NCBI GenBank assembly: GCA_018340805.1
Contig: JACMZG010001914.1
Location: 45,633,463 to 45,697,462 of the forward strand
DNA from: Microvelia longipes
Lineage: Eukaryota; Arthropoda; Insecta; Hemiptera; Veliidae
Direction: 5' to 3'
DNA: 64,000 nucleotides
Shown here: piece by piece, positions 6,825 to 61,799 of the stretch
How positions within the stretch are numbered: the first letter of the stretch is position 1
How the letters are laid out: each line of letters opens with the position of its first letter
Program-made: the position numbers and the translations under genes
Notes under the pieces: generated by a model
Seen by the model: only the letters and a program-made list of their open reading frames with translations
Databases searched by the model: none
Told to the model about the DNA's origin: nothing

Positions 6825-7385
6825 GACCTTAATCGGCCTTGGCCGTTGTGTGAATTTAAAAAATAAATAATTAATAAGACGCGGTCGAATATCCAACGGC
6901 CTTCTAGAACATTGGATACCAACAAACTTTTTTTTTAACTTTTTTTTTCAAAATTTTTTCAAAAGTAATTAGCCGGATTTGTGATAAATGAAGCCTATTT
7001 CCGTAATCTGCACGCTCTTTGGTTAATGTCAAAGAGTATTTACATTCACTCAACGATTTATTTTTAATTTAACTTGGTACATACATAACTACTGTTAGAC
7101 GTCAATGTTATCTACCTGATTTGTGTTATACTTGACATGTCATATTGTTGACATTGAGTCTAACAGTAGTTATGTATGTACCAAGTTAGATTAAAAATAA
7201 ATCGTTGAGTGAATGTAAATACTCTTTGAGAATTAACCCAAAGAGCTCGCAGACCACGGAAATAGCCTTCATTATATACAAATCCGGCTAATTACTGAAA
7301 ATTTTGAAAAAAATTTGTTGGTGATCCAATGTTTTAGAAGGCCGTGAATATTCGACCGCGCCTTATTAATGCCGGTTAATATCGT
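6825..7385. mobile_element. Foldback element, ~220-bp arms
   Basis: The left arm (6830-7105) and right arm (7150-7378) are inverted copies. For example, AACTTGGTACATACATAAC at 7071 is matched inverted at about 7165. Both outer ends carry GACGCGGTCGAAT or its variant and a CGGCC segment. The spacer is about 50 bp. No coding sequence was seen. It resembles an arm-only MITE. Confidence 0.8.
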
Positions 7386-7580: not shown

Positions 7581-8847
7581 AATAAGGAAAAGTAAAAAAG
7601 CGATTAATAATACAGAATTATATTTTTTGAGGTAGTACGTAATTGAGCACTTTTATTGGACCGTTTTTAGGATGAGAAGCCAATCATTATTGTTATAGGA
7701 GGTTATTTAGTACTTTTCACCTCGAGGACAATAATGAATGTAAAAAAAACTCCATAGGACGTAAAAGTAATTCAATATATTGCCCGCCATTACTGTAATG
7801 TACGTGTTCAAAAAACAATCTGTGTTAAACCTTTATGAGTTTTCTTTAAAAACGTTCATTTTGTTTTTTTTTTTTGTTCGTAGACTAATTTTTTTTTTTT
7901 CGTTTTTAAAAAGGTGTTTTAATTGACAATTTTTTGTGTGTTTATTTGTAAAGCTTTTACATTTTTCAGTAAAAGTGTGAAGCTATGGATGAATTTAATG
8001 ACGGCGATAATATGGAGTTAATAATAATTGACGTTTGTTTTTTTTCAATTAAGTATATAGCGCAGTTTAATGAGTGCTATTGTTTGATTTTTTTAATGAG
8101 GCTTTATTTAATAAGTGCTACCTCAAAAAAAAAAAAATAGGTGTATGCCATCCGGCTGAGAATGTCTTTATGTCTTGGCAATTTTCCCGACTCGCTTCGC
8201 TCTCGTCGGTAAATCTAATTGCCATGACATAAAAGACACACTTCTCAGCCTTATGGCATAAATAACTATTATAGGACTTCGTTAATTATTTTAAGAAACT
8301 ATAATAATTAATGAGTATTATTGTAATAAAAAAAGCTTCTCGATTCCTTAAAAAAAAACTTAAATCTGAACGCAATTGGCACAAAATCAAGTTGAGGATG
8401 TGAAGGAACTAATAGTGTATTGGAGCGGGCCAAATTGTAAGAATCTTTCTGAATCCTGAAAAATTACGGAGGATAAAATTTTGACAGCAAAAATGATGAG
8501 AAATTAAGAGAATAAATTAGTTTCATGACGATAGTGAGGTGATAACAGGTTTGATTATTATTATTTTATTCATATACATTTTTACGTGTTTTCCCCTTTT
8601 TATACAAAAACAATTATAATAATGAATACAAAATTTATACTTTTTGTATTTATTATTTGATTTTATAATCAATTTGTAAAAAAGAAAGAAAATTTAAAAA
8701 TTTAGAGAACAACCTGCTTATTAATTCACATACAAATTGCTTTATAAGTTTCTCATAAATATTAATAATTTATTTTTCTGTCTCGTCTCTGGTAAGTACT
8801 TTCACATATTCTTCGGAAGAATTAATGAAGGTCAGAGTGAGTTCAGG

Positions 8848-8889
8848 CTCTGTCGGCGCCCTGATGAGTTAGCGACTAACGAAACAGAG
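8848..8889 (+). ncRNA. Hammerhead ribozyme, copy A
   Basis: Layout: CTCTGT (helix III, 5' strand), C17 at 8854 as cleavage base, GGCGCC, the core CTGATGA (8861-8867), helix II GTTAG-CGA-CTAAC, GAAA, then the rest of ACAGAG closing helix III. All conserved core positions are present, with A15.1-U16.1 and G10.1-C11.1 pairs. Helix II differs from the other copies yet still pairs, by 5 bp with a 3-nt loop. Helix I is the palindrome GGCGCC with no loop, so it should pair with another unit rather than with itself. Confidence 0.88.
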
Positions 8890-9165
8890 TGGTACATGAC
8901 ATTATGTCGAGCCATCAATGATGACGAATGTCGAATGATGGAACAGTTCCCAGATGTAGCATTGCATTTTGCTTGTTACATTTCCTAGGTGTCTCTCGCA
9001 CAATTATATTGTGTCAACTATTCATGTTTTGCAAAACTCGGTAGTATCAAATGATAATATGTTTTGCTTGCCATGCATGATGGCGGTAAGAGAGCACCGC
9101 TCGTCTCTGGTAAGTACTTCACATTATATTTCTTTGGAATAATTGAAGGTCAGAGTGAGTTCAGG

Positions 9166-9207
9166 CTCTGTTGGGCGCCCTGATGAGTTAGACGTAACGA
9201 AACAGAG
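9166..9207 (+). ncRNA. Hammerhead ribozyme, copy B
   Basis: Same architecture as copy A. The cleavage triplet is GTT (9172 is position 17, still an allowed H). Helix I reads GGGCGCC plus the core C. Helix II is GTTA-GACG-TAAC. Core CTGATGA and GAAA are intact. It lies 318 bp downstream of copy A in the same orientation, so the two palindromic helix I strands could pair with each other. Confidence 0.85.
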
Positions 9208-9214
9208 TAAATTA

Positions 9215-9750
9215 AATTTATAATTCCCGGTTTGATGTTTGTTTATAAACATTTTTGATGTTTTGTTTACAAACATTTTGATGTTTGTCTACAAATCATG
9301 GTTATCACGATATCAGATCTACTTAAAAATTAACACAGCGTTTTATATTTTTTATAACATTTTTATGAATTACACCCTTATAAAATAATTAATACAATTT
9401 GTAACATTGGTTAAAGACCCTTTAAATAATTTTGATATCTTGGAATTGAAGAAATAATTATTTTATATATGGGTACAAGGTGAACCGACCTGCCACTAGT
9501 GGAGAAAGGGTGAACTTAAGGCAGGTCTATCTAAACCAGTTTATTCAGGGGGAGTTAGACCACTGTGCCCCGCGCCCCCACCCCTACTGTATGAATTTCT
9601 ACATCACTTTAATGTAAATATTTATATTTACTTTTGTTGTGATGGTGAGAAATAAATAATGACGCTTTGTTTATTTATTTAAAAAAAATAAATTATAATA
9701 AGCTTTGTTAATTTATTTTTTTAGTATGTCATATTTTTCACAGATGTAAT
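9215..9750. other. Spacer between array and right foldback arm
   Basis: A short run of TTTGATGTTTGT-like repeats (9230-9290), then AT-rich DNA with a GC-rich patch at 9480-9590. No gene was recognised. Confidence 0.5.
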
Positions 9751-10359
9751 AGTTATTTATGCCATAAGGCTGAGAAGTGTGTCTTTATGTCACGGCAATT
9801 AGATTTACCGACGAGCGAAGCGAGTCGGGAAAAATTGCCAAGACATAAAGACATTCTCAGCCGGATGGCATACACTATTTTTTGAGGTAGCACTCATTAA
9901 ATAAGCACTCATTAAAAAAATCAAAAAATAGCACTCATTAAACTGCGCTCCAACTTAATTGAAAAAAAAACAAACGTCCCAATTAACTCCATATTATCGT
10001 CGTCATTAAAATTCATCCATAGCTTCACACTTTACTCAAAAATGTAAAAGCTTTACAAATAAAACACACAAAAATTGTCAATTAGAACACCTTTTAAAAA
10101 CGAAAACAGAAACAAAATGAACGTTTTTAAAGAAAACTCTAAAGGTTTTAACGTAGATTGTTTTTTGAACACGCTACACATTACAGTAATGGCGCAACAT
10201 ATGAATTACTTTTTACGTCCTAGGAGTTTTTTTTACATTCATTATTGTTCCTCGGAGGTGAAAAGTACTAAATAACCTCCTATAACAATAATGATTGACT
10301 TCTCATCCTAAAAACGGTCCAATAAAGTGCTCAACTACGTACTACCTCAAAAAAACAAA

Positions 10360-26245: not shown

Positions 26246-26451
26246 CAAATCTCATTACTGTATCCGCTTTTGTGGTGGATTGCTTATAAATAAGAATAAA
26301 TGAAACTAAATAACAAATTAAATAAAACACAATATAATTGTGCGAGAGACACCAAGGAAATGTAACAAGCAAAATGCAATGCTACATCTGGGAACTGTTC
26401 CATCATTCGACATTCGTCATACCTGATGGCTCGACATAATGTCATGTCCCA

Positions 26452-26492
26452 CTCTGTTTCGTTACGTCTAACTCATCAGGGCGCCGACAGAG
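26452..26492 (-). ncRNA. Hammerhead ribozyme, copy C
   Basis: Minus-strand reading: CTCTGT, C17, GGCGCC, CTGATGA, GTTA-GACG-TAAC, GAAA, CAGAG. Core and helices are complete and identical to copies D and E. Confidence 0.87.
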
Positions 26493-26785
26493 CCTGAACT
26501 CACTCTGACCTTCAATTAATTCCGAAGAATATAATGTGAAGTATTGCATATGATGATATGATGCAAGAATATGATGTAGCATTGCATTTTGCTTGTTACA
26601 TTTCCTTGGTGTCTCTCGCACAATTATATTGTGTCAACTATTCATGTTTTGCAAAACTCGGTAGTATCAAAATGATATATGTTTTGCTTGCCATGCATGA
26701 TGGCGGTAAGAGAGCACCGCTCGTCTCTGGTAAGTACTTCACATTATATTCTTCGGAATTAATTGAAGGTCAGAGTGAGTTCAGG

Positions 26786-26826
26786 CTCTGTCGGCGCCCT
26801 GATGAGTTAGACGTAACGAAACAGAG
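26786..26826 (+). ncRNA. Hammerhead ribozyme, copy D
   Basis: Complete motif identical to copy C but on the plus strand; the predicted cleavage is after C26792. The 92-codon plus frame (26558-26836) runs through it and is not a gene. Confidence 0.87.
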
Positions 26827-27029
26827 TGGGACATGACATTATGTCGAGCCATCAGGTATGACGAATGTCGAATGATGGAACAGTTCCCAGATGTAGCATT
26901 GCATTTTGCTTGTTACATTTCCTTGGTGTCTCTCGCACAATTATATTGTGTCAACTATTTATGTTTTGCAAAACTCGGTAGTATGAAAATGATATAAATT
27001 AAATAAAACTTTATTTTGTTTGTTATGTA

Positions 27030-33195: not shown

Positions 33196-33516
33196 TCATT
33201 CACTGACGTCAGAATATATAAACTCTAAAATTAAATTTGTTTTAGGTTCGAACTTAGAGAATGGCAACCGAGACATTTTTCTCTTTAGGTAATTTTCACA
33301 CGTGTGTTTGTCATTCTCATTTATGCAATGACCATGAACTAATTCTTTCGAATTTAGAGTTTTTATGTCATTGAAATTTAAGTGACTTAGGTCACAATAA
33401 CAAAGATATTTTTTGTTATTGTTTATCCTGATTTGAGAAAGTTTTACCCTATGTTTGAGAATGAAACATCGTGAGAATTTGATTTCCGATTCTCGACGAT
33501 TCTCCTCCTCTAACAT
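33196..33516 (-). pseudogene. Copia GAG-pre-integrase and integrase start
   Basis: The open minus-strand stretch of 106 codons contains LSHLNFNDIKTLNSKELVHG and C-x-N-YLKRKMSRLPF text, then LILEFIYSDVSE. These match the order of the zinc-binding pre-integrase region and the first Asp region (HsDv) of Copia integrase. It lies upstream of, and in the same orientation as, the 32440-32855 piece; about 340 bp of unrecognised sequence separates them. Confidence 0.75.
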
Positions 33517-33559
33517 TTTTATTTAATGTTTACTATATCTGGGAGTGATTACTTTCAAT

Positions 33560-34208: not shown

Positions 34209-34740
34209 CATATGGTATACTAGAGCGCTACAAGGCATGGCTAGTTGCCGGAGGAGTCTCCCAGAAACCAGGCATAGACTACTACGAAACTTACTCTCCG
34301 GTTATACGATTCAGTTCACTCAGACTAATTCTAGCTATATCAGTCGAACTATAGCTAGTGCTGCTCCTGATGGATGTGACGACTAAATGGTGATTTGGAT
34401 GCCGAGGTGTACATGAACCAACCGAAGGGGTTCATAGTAAAAGGACAAGAACATAAAGTATGCAGACTAAAAAAATCACTTTATGGTTTGAGGCAATCTA
34501 GTAGAATGTGGAATATAAAGTCAGGTGAGAAACTGAAAGAAATGGGCTTTAAACAACTAGAATCAGAGCCAAGTTTATATTTAAGGCGAAAAGAAAACCA
34601 GTTCACGATAATAGCTGTTTTCGTGGATGATTTGACATTGGCATCAACATCTGAAGATGACAAAAACAAAACTAAAAAAGACCTGATGAATGTCTTCAAG
34701 ATGAAAGACCTTGGTAAAATGCAAAACCTATCAAGTGTAT
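34209..34740 (+). pseudogene. Copia reverse transcriptase fragment
   Basis: Plus strand: GIDYYETYSPVIRFSSLRLI (34270s), a broken stretch, then MNQPKGFIVKGQEHKVCRLK, SLYGLRQSSRMWN and VFVDDLTLAST. This is the order of the Copia reverse transcriptase with the catalytic YVDD box read here as FVDD. There is a stop and frame change near 34350-34385. It ends abruptly at 34735 in a minisatellite. It faces away from the Gag/integrase pieces, so either two insertions or an inversion is involved. Confidence 0.88.
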
Positions 34741-34918
34741 TCTGTTTAGTCTAACTATTCAAGTTGTATTCTGTTTAGTCTAATATTCAAGTATTCAAGT
34801 TGTTGTATTCTGTTTAGTCTAACTATTCAAGTTGTATTCTGTTTAGTCTAACTATTCAAGTTGTATTCTGGTATCAAGTTGTATTCTGAGTCTAACTATT
34901 CAAGTTGTAAACTATTTT
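34740..34918. repeat. Minisatellite, 29-bp unit, ~6 copies
   Basis: Units of TCTAACTATTCAAGTTGTAT plus TCTGTTTAG directly truncate the reverse transcriptase fragment. Confidence 0.85.
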
Positions 34919-38515: not shown

Positions 38516-38867
38516 CCTGTACAATCTTTACGTTACACCGAACACATGTCATGGTTTAACTAGGCCTTGACATGGGAGGGAACTGCGGTAAAGTTCCTAG
38601 AAGAGTTACTAATAACAACTAAGTACTCAAGTTACTAACAAGAGTGTTATGAATTAAAACTAAGTTTAGTTATGTTAAACAAAACAAGTATGCAACGAAA
38701 TTAATTTGTACAATTTACGTACAAAATTTAAAGTATTAATTTATACAATATAATTGTGCGAGAGGCACCTAGGAAATGTAACAAGCAAAATGCAATGCTA
38801 CATCTGGGAACTGTTCCATCATTCGACATTCGTCATCATTGATGGCTCGACATAATGTCATGTCCCA

Positions 38868-38908
38868 CTCTGTTTCGTTACGTCTAACTCATCAGGGCGC
38901 CGACAGAG
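38868..38908 (-). ncRNA. Hammerhead ribozyme, copy E
   Basis: Complete motif on the minus strand, identical to copies C and D in core and helices. Confidence 0.87.
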
Positions 38909-39146
38909 CCTGAACTCACTCTGACCTTCAATTAATTCCGAAGAATATAATGTGAAGTACTTACCAGAGACGAGCGGTGCTCTCTTACCGACATCATGCA
39001 TGGCAAGCAAAACATATATCATTTGATACTACCGAGTTTTGCAAAACATGAATAGTTGACACAATATAATTGTGCGAGAGACACTTAGGAATGTAACAAG
39101 CAAAATGCAATGCTACATCTGGGAACTGTTCCATCATTTCGACTTC

Positions 39147-39171
39147 GTAGACGTAACGAAACTGAGTGGGA
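39147..39171 (+). ncRNA. Truncated hammerhead remnant
   Basis: Only GTAGACGTAAC-GAAAC and TGAG remain. The core CTGATGA and the cleavage site have been lost at the inversion junction, and helix III carries a mismatch (CTGAG for CAGAG). Confidence 0.7.
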
Positions 39172-39679
39172 CACGACATTATGTCGAGCCATCAATGATG
39201 ACGAATGTCGAATGATAGAACAGTTCCCAGATGTAGCATTGCATTTTGCTTGTTACATTTCCTAGGTGTCTCTTCGCACAATTATATTGTGTCAACTATT
39301 CATGTTTTGCAAAACTCGGTAGTATCAAATGATATATATTAATTTATACTTTAAATACAAAATAGTTATAACAAATTATCTGCAAGCTAATTTATCAGCA
39401 CCTGTTGAATTAATTAAAATATAATACAAAATAGACCAAACAATAAGTTGGTCTTGTCTAAACAAGTAATTAACCTTCATTATAATTCCTGTTACATTTT
39501 TAATTAATGCAGTAATTATAAAATAAATTGTTATAATTTGGATGAAAAGGGTTAGAAAAGTTAATTACAGGTCAGTTAACATATGAAAACTGGTAAGAAG
39601 GAAAATACTTATTAAATGTATTAACTTGACTCAGACTAAGTATGAATAATGTTATATTTGGGGATGATATAAAATAATA

Positions 39680-39824: not shown

Positions 39825-40190
39825 ATATTAATAATGTTATTATGTTGACATGTTTATGAAATAACAATGTTATTATGTTGACATTGTTTATGAATAACAA
39901 TGTTATTATGTTGACATTGTTTATGAAATAACAATGTTATTATGTTGACATTGTTTATGAAATAACAATGTTATTATGTTGACATTGTTTATGAAATAAC
40001 AATGTTATTATGTTAACATTGTTTATGAAATAACAATGTTATTATGTTAACATTGTTTATGAAATAACAATGTTATTATGTTAACATTGTTTATGAAATA
40101 ACAATGTTATTATGTTGACATTGTTTATGAAATAACAATGTTATTATGTTAAAATTGTTTATGAAATAACAATGTTATTATGTGTGTGTG
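39825..40190. repeat. Minisatellite, 34-bp unit, ~10 copies
   Basis: Unit AATAACAATGTTATTATGTTG plus ACATTGTTTATGA, highly uniform. AACAATGTTATT and AACAATG/CATTGTT parts are self-complementary. It directly precedes a family X copy. Confidence 0.93.
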
Positions 40191-48830: not shown

Positions 48831-48935
48831 GAAGGGGCGACCTGGTGTTATGCTGGGATTTGACATTAATTTACACAGGCAGAATAGAGAACAGCAGAGC
48901 GGAAGGAGGAAGAGGTCCGTTGAAGAACTCGATGC

Positions 48936-49484
48936 TTGGAGGATATTGATCGATCTAGTTTGTTTGCGGAATTGCTACCAAGCACCAGAAGCAGTAGTAG
49001 CACAGAAAACAGTGAGGGAGTTTCAGATGAGCTTGTCTCTGATGCAATTTTTCCTTCGTCGTTGGGTTTTAGAGGAACTGTTGATTTTTTTAATGATCGC
49101 CTAGCACCAACGTTAGATAGGTGCAAAGTTAGGGACAGAGATGCTGTTCATGTATTAGTTACCACAGCAGAAGCGTTAGGCCATGATGCAAAGGACTTGA
49201 TAATTAACAGAAAGTCAATAAGCCGTAAACGATCCCAGTTAAGGATTCTTAGATACAAGGAAATGTTAAAAACCTTTAGTATTGATAGAAATCAGTGTGC
49301 TGTTGTGCATTGGGATGGGAAGCTTCATCCTAATATTACAAAAGACAATAAGATAGAGAGGTTGGCAGTTCTTATTTCATATGGCGTAAAATACAAGTTG
49401 ATAGGAGCTCCGAGCATACCACAAGCCTGTGGTATGCTCGGAGCTCCTATCAATTCTGCTCCAGTAGCCACTGGAGCAGAATAA
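48936..49484 (+). pseudogene. Transposase core, first catalytic Asp region
   Basis: A 182-codon frame. Residues 75-105 read DRDAVHVLVTTAEALGHDAK, and residues 137-150 include VVHWDGK, followed by ERLAVLISYG and LIGAPSI. This order matches a large family of uncharacterised insect and cnidarian proteins that I take to be DDE-type transposases, with the Asp of HWDGK as the first acidic residue. After IPQA an in-frame 42-base insertion (49425-49466) forms two palindromes. The frame then reads TGAE and stops at TAA (CAA in an intact copy, by inference). Confidence 0.7.
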
Positions 49485-57829: not shown

Positions 57830-58745
57830 TTTTTCTTCCTTGAGAGTAAAAACTAGGATCAGTACAGACTAATAGAAATTCTTTCCACTGAGATTATAGG
57901 CAACTGATAAAAACCTAATCTATCGCAAAGCTTTACAATAATTTTGATCTAAATGTATTAGTTCTACATGATTGTAAAGCAATTTGAACTTAACAATAAT
58001 TTTCAAGATGGCGCCAAAAATTTGATTACCATAAGTATAAGTCGCATAAATAATCACTTATGACAACTTAATCATTTACAGGTGTGTTAAGTGACACCTT
58101 TTTATTAAAAAAAAAAAATTATAATAAAAATATTAATTATTTATATAACATTTGATACTATCGAGTTTTGCAAAAAATGAATAGTTGACACAAAATAATT
58201 TTGTGTAAATTATTTATATTCAACAAAAATGCAAATTATATGTATTTAACGAAAATGCAAATTATTGCATTTAAAAAAAAAAGATGTAATGCAAATTATG
58301 TTCTCAATAAATCGCATAACTAGCATTAAGTAAACTTTTGATAAACGTACAAGTGTATAAAATTAAAAATGTTTTGATCGAATAATTACAAAATAATTGA
58401 ATTGTCATATTTTAATGAACTGATTGTCTTACTGGCGCAACTCATATGCTGAATCATTATCTGAGTTGTTATCAATTTTACCACTGTAAAATTATAGTAA
58501 CACTGATAAAATATTAATTAATGCAAAACAATAAAACAAAATAAATTAGTTAATGACATTTGTTGTTGTCGGTTAAAATTAATACTGTTTATTATATATT
58601 TAATACCATGAATATTTTAATGGATGATGGAAATTTAACTTGTTTTATTATATTTATTATAGAAAGAAATTCACATCGCCTCGGTGGACGGTCGAGGCGC
58701 GACGCGCTGATGGTCTATTTCTAGAGTGGCCACTTCAGAAAGGAA
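57830..58745. other. Intergenic with one hammerhead-repeat scrap
   Basis: 58148-58205 is a diverged minus-strand scrap of the hammerhead repeat unit (TTTGATACTATCGAGTTTTG, then ATGAATAGTTGACACAA) without the ribozyme. A GC-rich patch at 58675-58715 (CGGTCGAGGCGCGACGCG) is unexplained. Confidence 0.5.
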
Positions 58746-59650: not shown

Positions 59651-59884
59651 TCATAGCAGATAGAGTAATAGATTAGAGAGTTAGAAATAAGTTTTTGAAT
59701 AGATTATTTGGATGGAGGGAGGGGTTGTAGATAGATGTTAAATAAATAAATAAATATTTTAATAAATATCTTTTGACCTTTTTTCAGAAATTAAATAAAT
59801 GACAAATCGAATACATATTAAAAAAACTATACAATTACTTAAAGTGCTATTTACAAATACTAACAATGTATAACAAAATACTAC

Positions 59885-61240
59885 CATTTTAGCAGGGGTG
59901 TGCATTTTGTTGTTTCAAAAATTTGGTAATTTTTAAGTATAAAAGTGTGTATGTATGTTACACATAGGTTGTAGAAAAATTACCGGAATTTTATGATATT
60001 GGTATCAAATTTCTCAGAACACAATGTAGTTTTTTAAAAATGTTCATATCATGGTATGCTCCAATTTAACTTTTTAAAGTTACCGAGGAATTACTATTTC
60101 GGGTAATAAAATTACCATATTTGCCAAATAGTTACCAAAAAATAATGACATAATTGAGGTCACTGAGGTCGATTACCTGGGGGTGGAGTTTTCCCCGACT
60201 CTCTATCTTCATTTTTAACCATTTTAGCAGGGAGTGTGCATTTTGTTGTTCCAAAAATTGGTAATTTTCAAGTATAAAAGTGTGTATGTATGTTACACAA
60301 TAGGTTGTAGAAAAATTACCGGAATTTTATGATATTGGTATCAAATTTCTCAGAACATAATGTAGTTTTCAAAAATGTTCATATCATGGTATGCTCCAAT
60401 TTAACTTTTTAAAGTTACCGAGGAATTACTATTTCGGGTAATAAAATTACCATATTTGCAAATAGTTACCAAAAAATATTGACATATTTGAGGTCACTGA
60501 GGTCGATTACCTAGGGTGGAGTTTTTCCCGACTCTCTATCTCCATTTTTAACCATTTTAGCAGGGGGTGTGCATTTTGTTGTTCCAAAAATTTGGTAATT
60601 TTCAAGTATAAAAGTGTGTATGTATGTTACACAATAGGTCGTAGAAAAATTACCGGAATTTTTGATATTGGTATCAAATTCTCAGAACACAATGTAGTTT
60701 TTAAAAACGTTCATATCATGGTATGCTCCAATTTAACTTTTTAAAGTTACGAGGAATTACTATTTCGGGTAATAAAATTACCATATTTGCCAAATAGTTA
60801 CCAAAAAAAATAATGACATATTTGAGGTCACTGAGGTCGATTACCTAGGGGTGGAGTTTTTCCCGACTCTCTATCTCCATTTTTAACCATTTTAGCAGGG
60901 GGTGTGCATTTTGTTGTTCCAAAAATTTGGTAATTTTCAGTATAAAAGTGTGTATGTATGTTACACAATAGGTTGTAGAAATATTACCGGAATTTTATGA
61001 TATTGGTATCAAATTTCTCAGAACATAATGTAGTTTTTAAAAATGTTCATATCATGGTATGCTCCAATTTAACTTTTTAAAGTTACCGAGGAATTACTAT
61101 TCGGGTAATAAAATTACCATATTTGCCAAATAGTTACCAAAAAAATATGACATATTTGAGGTCACTGAGGTCGATTACCTGGGGGTGAGTTTTTCCCGAC
61201 TCTCTATCTCCATTTTTAACCATTTTAGCAGGGGGTGTGC
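59885..61240 (-). repeat. ~334-bp satellite units, right arm (4 copies)
   Basis: Unit edges AGCAGGGGGTGTGCATTTTG at 59891, 60226, 60560 and 60894, ending at 61226. Spacing is 332-335 bp and the copies are over 95 percent alike by eye. Confidence 0.9.
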
Positions 61241-61799
61241 ATCTGAAATGTTCCACCCTGTATATAGAAGGAGCACAGGACCGTAAACACAATGTAATTC
61301 ACTGATAAGAAAGCCGGTTGACGACTGGTGCACCTAAGTAATGCTGCCAACCTGACAACAAAACATTATTTTAAATATGTGTCACAAATATCTATTAATG
61401 AAGAAAGGTCGTAAAGAACAAATATTATAACTTAAAACACCTGCTGAGTATTTAATAAAACCGGTCTTAGATGGCAAAAGGGTGGCGGAATACAAGAATC
61501 TACATTTAGTTGACGAGGACTACTTTTAATATAATTTTTAATAAATACGTTATACTGCAATTTAAAATGCTTAAATATTGTAATGCACCGATATTTATAT
61601 TAGTATTTATAAAATCAATCATTTATTAATATAGAACATAATATTCAGCAACCGGAAGTATTGCCGACTTTTTTGTAGAAAATTGTATATTGTTAGGGTG
61701 GCAGCATTACTTAGGTGCACCAGTGAACCGGCTTTCGTGTTATCAGTAGTGCTCCTTCTATATATAGTATTATTCTAAGGCTCTTGGTCTATTAGAAGG

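Follow-up and report, generated by a model that had tools for sequence, protein, structure and literature searches.

Repeat loci in the window

Four loci of one repeat family are present in the window, the whole 64-kb stretch of Microvelia longipes DNA that was analysed, and the statements on the element rest on these four: locus A (8782-9208), locus B (26329-26995), locus C (38747-39336) and locus D (58147-58207). An earlier reading of the sequence alone had counted three loci of the family in the window; these were borne out as A, B and C, and D is a fourth, a fragment without a ribozyme. The units are tandem and non-coding, with lengths of 318, 317 and 315 bp and a G+C content of 0.42 in units A, B and C. 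For the chance reading frame of a locus B unit, a search gave no homologue (six candidates, none scored).

Locus A, on the forward strand, comprises 1.34 units by BLAST against a doubled unit, with one unit at 8782-9099 followed by a partial unit at 9100-9208. Its direct-repeat spacing is 318 bp and the units are 87% identical across their common part. Locus B has two arms. The left arm (26329-26543, reverse strand) is an inverted cDNA that starts at unit position ~233 and extends back to ~16, with a hammerhead at 26452-26492, and the right arm (26573-26995, forward strand) is a cDNA of ~423 nt that ends at unit position ~275 and includes a hammerhead at 26786-26826. The 29 bp joining these arms (26544-26572) have no match to the unit and form filler where the cDNAs meet. 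Locus C likewise has a left arm (38747-39148, reverse strand), an inverted cDNA of ~402 nt that starts at unit position ~231, reaches back into the previous turn as far as ~143 and includes a hammerhead at 38868-38908, and a right arm (39150-39336, forward strand), a cDNA of ~187 nt that ends at unit position ~277-279 and carries a partial ribozyme. Locus D is a reverse-strand fragment of ~61 nt covering unit positions ~218 to 278.

Several other features were recorded around these loci. Locus A is contained in an element (7618-10354) whose terminal inverted repeats are long and interrupted, with arms that match, for example, at 99% (7652-7723 with 10255-10326) and 86% (8030-8130 with 9878-9978); its two internal foldback hairpins (8144-8260 and 9758-9872) give a weak Rfam MIR2646 match, far under the cut-off. 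Another foldback at 7067-7191 on the reverse strand matches Rfam MIR4372 with 52.9 bits (E 1.4e-6, cut-off 100) and is possibly a small inverted-repeat transposon. A 34-bp tandem repeat (39829-40183, 10.5 copies, 97% matches) begins ~500 bp past locus C, and at 59883-61242 a 334-bp unit is repeated in tandem 4.1 times with 95% matches. A copia-type reverse transcriptase fragment was found at 34380-34754 on the forward strand (Pfam RVT_2, 2.9e-31), and a weak gag_pre-integrs match under the cut-off at 33196-33522 on the reverse strand. The 186-aa open frame at 48924-49484 (forward strand) has no Pfam match; its product shares 85% identity, across 91% of its length, with a protein from a public contig of 1.3 kb.

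Insertion anatomy

Exact target-site duplications flank three of the four loci. They are AAATTAAATAAAAC of 14 bp at locus B (left copy 26315-26328, right copy 26996-27009), TATTAATTTATAC of 13 bp at locus C (38734-38746 and 39337-39349) and AATTATTTATAT of 12 bp at locus D (58135-58146 and 58208-58219). In a control with equal slack, duplications of at least 12 bp were obtained for 13 of 2000 random position pairs of the window. No target duplication was found at locus A, where the best candidate has 7 bp. The duplications of B, C and D are AT-rich and ATT is present in all three, which is weak evidence because the window is 68% A+T.

In B and C the two arms are oriented in opposite directions, head to head, with the RNA 3' sides outward. 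Their outer ends fall at unit positions 231-233 on the left and 275-279 on the right (about 232 and 277). The right end of D also lies at unit position ~278, and its left end (~218) is off start site 1 and was not counted; the ends of locus A match neither start site, and this locus is without the head-to-head anatomy. With starts placed at random on a circle of 317 nt, the probability of three right ends (B, C and D) falling within 5 nt is 0.00097 and that of two left ends (B and C) falling within 3 nt is 0.019, both tolerances having been fixed post hoc with the ends already seen. The two outer-end positions are ~44 nt apart, and one arm reaches that much further than the other.

Each start site has a predicted stem-loop, shown here in its locus A version. 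The 3' foot of the first (GCACAATTATATTGTGT, 8998-9014, forward strand) is start site 1 (unit ~231-233); its energy was -4.6 kcal/mol for an 18-mer that was picked with the ends known, and 2 of 200 shuffles were as good. The second (GTATCAAATGATA(A)T, 9044-9058, forward strand) likewise has its 3' foot at start site 2 (unit ~275-279); its B/C version, picked likewise, had -2.6 kcal/mol, with 6 of 200 shuffles as good. No unusual folding was found for the 73-nt region spanning both start sites (z -1.36, 21 of 200 shuffles as good).

This anatomy can be set beside that of Penelope-like elements. A purified Penelope-like protein has been reported to cut and extend both DNA strands at AT-rich ATT targets, with cDNA that begins at two internal sites next to each other, most often within a stem-loop that bears no relation to the DNA being cut; the sequence separating these two sites is the genomic "tail" of 30-40 bp (PMC11167929). 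In rotifers, a Penelope copy is completed by a second, inverted one, mostly in head-to-head arrangement; one arm may carry a tail of 31 bp, and the target duplications measure 8-10 bp (PMC3846280). Head-to-head inverted copies and a tail on one arm are also found in B and C (~44 nt) and not in A. The AT-rich targets, the two internal cDNA starts in or beside stem-loops and the association with hammerheads described in the consulted parts of these sources are all as here, whereas the target duplications of the present family are longer (12-14 bp). The hammerheads of Penelope elements differ in being minimal type I (PMC7761336), while the present family has type III order and no reading frame. 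No Penelope gene was found among the 14 of the 52 open reading frames of at least 85 aa in the window that were scanned with Pfam. Judged from the anatomy of B and C, insertion by Penelope-type machinery is reasonably probable.

LINE-type reverse transcriptases that act by twin priming are also compatible with target duplications of 12-14 bp and with inverted cDNA arms, and both features were counted for such an origin. It is nevertheless unlikely here, as the arms of independent loci start at the same two internal positions, and one arm carries the ~44-nt extension that is seen in Penelope-like elements (PMC11167929, PMC3846280).

The arms also bear on the nature of the template. One arm is longer than one unit in each of B and C, and the template was therefore circular or multimeric. 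In locus B, the arms are identical across 216 aligned bases (217 nt at 100% in a second comparison), and both unit passes and the inverted arm have private variants in common. This pattern fits one circle copied round in a recent event, and a circular RNA may quite likely have been the template for the cDNA. A linear multimer transcript in place of the circle is the less probable source, at about the same low level as twin priming. Transcription through a tandem array would likewise lead to cDNA of more than one unit with the same starts, and the two unit passes in B do differ at 2 of ~100 overlapping positions. Moreover, insertion by the Penelope-like element in vitro is independent of ribozyme cleavage and unprocessed RNA is its main substrate, which is a point for a linear template (PMC11167929). 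Against this stand the common private variants and identical arms of B, as from one molecule copied round, and the finding that published animal retrozymes accumulate as circles (PMC7229834). Locus C provides weaker counter-evidence, with 4 differences and one gap between its arms over 139 aligned bases.

The hammerhead motif

The two same-strand hammerhead cores 318 bp apart that the sequence-only reading had described in locus A were confirmed by direct reading and parsing. The first, A1 (8848-8889, forward strand), scores 32.7 bits with the Rfam type III model and consists of CTCTGT (8848-8853), the cleavage base C (8854), GGCGCC (8855-8860), CTGATGA (8861-8867), a helix II of 5 bp (GTTAG/CTAAC, 8868-8880), GAA (8881-8883) and ACAGAG (8884-8889). 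The second, A2 (9166-9207, forward strand; 31.3 bits), has a helix II of 4 bp (GTTA/TAAC) and the cleavage base T at 9172, followed by GGGCGCC at 9173-9179. The predicted cuts in locus A are thus after 8854 and after 9172. The three other copies, two in B and one in C on the strands of their arms, were obtained by descriptor scan and parsing, and the order within each copy is CTCTGT, cleavage base, GGCGCC, CTGATGA, helix II and GAAACAGAG. Helix III has 6-7 bp. Helix II has 5 bp in A1 and 4 bp in the other copies, with a 4-nt loop in these four of the five, and its pairing is preserved despite the changes in A1.

The block order is that of type III, which leaves helix III open and calls for hairpins at helices I and II. 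The whole interval from the cleavage base to CTGATGA is taken up by GGCGCC (GGGCGCC in A2), a 6-nt palindrome that is its own reverse complement. Because the 6-7 nt in the helix I position cannot form a hairpin, a single copy is not a complete ribozyme. The earlier claim of a complete hammerhead in each unit thus has to be amended, with helices II and III present and a helix I hairpin impossible within one copy. A type I reading within one copy was also tried and rejected, as the strand needed after GAAA (CTCTGT-H-GGCGCC) is not reached until the following unit. A non-circular permutation, as presented in the consulted part of PMC10085705, was rejected because the blocks follow the type III order.

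The descriptor used for scanning (CTGANGA, helix II of at least 3 bp, GAAA, UH, 0-39 nt for helix I and helix III of at least 5 bp) was written post hoc with the motif already known; it gave five matches in the window, every one of this element family, and 8 matches in 100 simulations of 64-kb sequence with matching dinucleotide composition, or 0.08 per window. Rfam RF00008, the type III hammerhead model, gave 37 bits for each of the three copies in B and C in addition to the scores of A1 and A2 (E 0.00024 to 0.0097), and all five fall under its gathering score of 48.5. At the gathering threshold, Rfam had no matches in the window, and its listing of the window up to E 3 contained no further hammerhead matches. 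Events per aligned base numbered 2/56 for the core, 3/126 for the remaining ribozyme and 37/1071 for the body, so that among the window copies, with the C left arm omitted from the counts as the reference, no measurable excess of core conservation above the body was found.

A predicted two-copy ribozyme

As GGCGCC is self-complementary, two copies can pair through it. Pairing between copies sets each CTCTGT against the ACAGAG of its partner, with the result of two cores and one common 6-bp helix I. In most type III hammerheads helix I is 6 bp long, and helix II typically has 4 bp and a loop of 4 nt (PMC7936874); these lengths are equalled in four of the five copies given an inter-copy helix I. 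When two 45-nt motifs were co-folded, the minimum for copy A1 was the double hammerhead, and for copies A2 and B a different fold that lies 9.6 and 2.5 kcal/mol under the scored double form.

Longer RNAs were folded as well. The partition function of the locus A RNA (8782-9225) gave a probability of 0.98 for inter-copy GGCGCC pairing, 0.92 for one inter-copy helix III and 0.22 for the other, and 0.0 for helix III within a copy. The form of minimum energy (-130.3) has one assembled inter-copy core; the full double form is 5.6 above this minimum and two single motifs are 15.1 above it. When units A, B and C were made into tandems in silico, GGCGCC pairing was 0.87-0.95 and inter-copy helix III 0.0-0.38, and the double form was 7.1, 3.8 and 7.2 kcal/mol above the minimum, respectively. 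The C tandem with a non-palindromic hexamer had an unchanged minimum (-119.0 against -118.5), and the palindrome is therefore not the driver of the overall fold. The one-unit circle surpasses shuffles in folding by a modest margin (z -2.2; 70% of bases paired, against 64%), hence rod-likeness is not claimed.

Upstream of the motif, a hairpin CAGAG...CTCTG (8833-8852, forward strand, with a second one in locus A at 9151-9170) competes with helix III. Its letters are identical in five full copies. For the RNA of locus A the model gave this hairpin pair probabilities of 0.02 and 0.07, and for the in-silico tandems values from 0.07 to 0.99; in the folding model the hairpin could serve as an off state of the ribozyme.

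Taken as predictions, these folds make an inter-copy helix I likely and the active two-copy state reachable. Action as a dimer is the better reading than a single-copy ribozyme, and we lean, with modest confidence, towards cutting by the dimer only through a shared helix I. A type III hammerhead that works alone, with helix I collapsed to 1-2 bp or replaced by core stacking, is doubtful. The intact core, the 31-37 bits with a single-motif Rfam model and the strong helix III of 6-7 bp speak for it, but GGCGCC is too short for a hairpin, the single motif was the minimum-energy fold in none of the three copies tested, and in all three the two single motifs without helix I were 15.3-15.5 kcal/mol worse than the double hammerhead.

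Double hammerheads of the newt and of avocado sunblotch viroid are likewise expected to form the active structure only from two copies (PMC6466107). In those systems stems III merge, through a short helix III with a palindromic loop, whereas here helix III has 6-7 bp, the palindrome takes the helix I position and stems I would merge. Neither a hammerhead that merges stems I nor an analysis of head-to-head insertion in retrozymes was found in the literature consulted, and no claim is made that either is absent from print. Sequence searches for analogues used a fixed pattern; for a helix I segment of 6 nt they yielded 100 stretches in viral contigs and 85 in contigs of prokaryote genomes, and for an 8-nt segment 48 stretches in viral contigs. 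A rescan covered 230 loci from these searches, whose listings for the 6-nt pattern included 80 of the 100 viral and 80 of the 85 prokaryote stretches. It returned 200 matches with the 6-nt segment, of which three had a helix III of at least 5 bp together with a helix II of at least 3 bp and none had a palindromic segment. With the 8-nt segment, 2 of 50 matches passed the helix test, palindromes being counted for the 6-nt set only. Thus no analogue of the same architecture was found among the matches listed from viral and prokaryote contigs, and the remaining pattern matches presumably stem from chance or from hammerheads of other types. The exact 26-base pattern of the element family had no match in viral contigs.

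Relation to known retrozymes

Animal retrozymes are circle-forming repeats of ~170-400 nt with type I hammerheads (PMC7229834). The metazoan non-LTR retrozymes of Cervera and de la Pena (2020, PMC7229834) resemble the present family in their non-coding units of ~150-450 bp with a hammerhead in each. Their G+C content is below ~45-50%, and the 42% found here agrees with this (PMC7229834). Target duplications of more than 4 bp, when present, are likewise shared at B, C and D, and locus A has none (PMC7229834). The hammerheads differ, those of metazoan retrozymes being type I and those found here having type III order with a helix I that cannot be closed (PMC7229834). Dimers of metazoan retrozymes are described with a weak helix III and a palindromic loop, whereas here helix III has its 6-7 bp and the palindrome is in the helix I position (PMC7229834). 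Head-to-head arms with fixed start sites are not described for metazoan retrozymes in the consulted part of that source (PMC7229834).

In block order and core the present family agrees with the type III hammerhead of plant LTR retrozymes, of which the helix I hairpin is absent here. They have LTRs of ~350 bp with a spacing of 600-1000 bp, against a unit of 317 bp here, and 4-bp duplications with more than 55% G+C, against 12-14 bp and 42% (PMC7761336, PMC7229834).

The sequence-only reading was upheld in part, and the retrozyme-like retroposon that it had proposed is well supported. The support comes from the target duplications of 14, 13 and 12 bp, by the non-coding units of ~317 bp, by arms of more than one unit and by the identical arms of B. 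Less in keeping with it are the type III order with an incomplete single copy and the state of locus A, the locus that had been cited, which has no duplication and units that are 87% identical; the reading is thus supported more by loci B-D than by locus A. As the type I hammerhead of animal retrozymes is lacking, the element is classed as a retrozyme-like, variant form, and on its sequence features it is very likely a retrozyme-like retroelement.

Proposed life cycle

Taken as a whole, the data are best explained by a non-autonomous retrozyme-like element of ~317 bp that is cut as a dimer and inserted in the Penelope manner, an explanation that we consider probable. In the proposed cycle, GGCGCC segments of adjacent copies would pair in a read-through RNA of at least two units, forming a common helix I and inter-copy helices III. 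Cutting at both sites would then release a one-unit RNA, and a host ligase would close it to a circle. Such a one-unit circle would be unable to recut itself because it contains a single GGCGCC. A Penelope-type reverse transcriptase would nick both strands of AT-rich DNA, and cDNA from both nicks would begin at the two internal circle sites (unit ~232 and ~277) and run round the circle before the two cDNAs are joined head to head. The complete scheme, in which a dimer-only hammerhead with shared helix I, a locked circle and Penelope-type insertion from two fixed internal sites leave tailed head-to-head cDNA pairs, is put forward tentatively, as a possibility that falls somewhat short of an even chance.

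It is very unlikely that the family is a dead satellite or fossil repeat with a now functionless ribozyme and inverted copies from later rearrangement: the core change rate is not lower than that of the body and locus A has no target duplication and diverged units, but locus B is recent, as seen from its perfect 14-bp duplication and its arms identical over 216 bases, and B and C have both outer end positions in common at different target sites.

Two points stated in the retrozyme literature are touched by these results. The hammerhead in animal retrozyme circles is described as probably blocked by something besides self-pairing (PMC7229834). Penelope-like elements have been proposed as a strong candidate for the mobilisation of retrozymes (PMC7229834), and the consulted part of another source states that no conserved motif points to an autonomous partner (PMC7761336). 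A two-copy ribozyme, if true, would explain the closed one-unit circle for this element family. The common end positions and head-to-head arms provide a genomic footprint that can be sought wherever a genome carries retrozymes, so as to identify the enzyme. Both the block on the circle hammerhead and the mobilising enzyme would thereby become testable.
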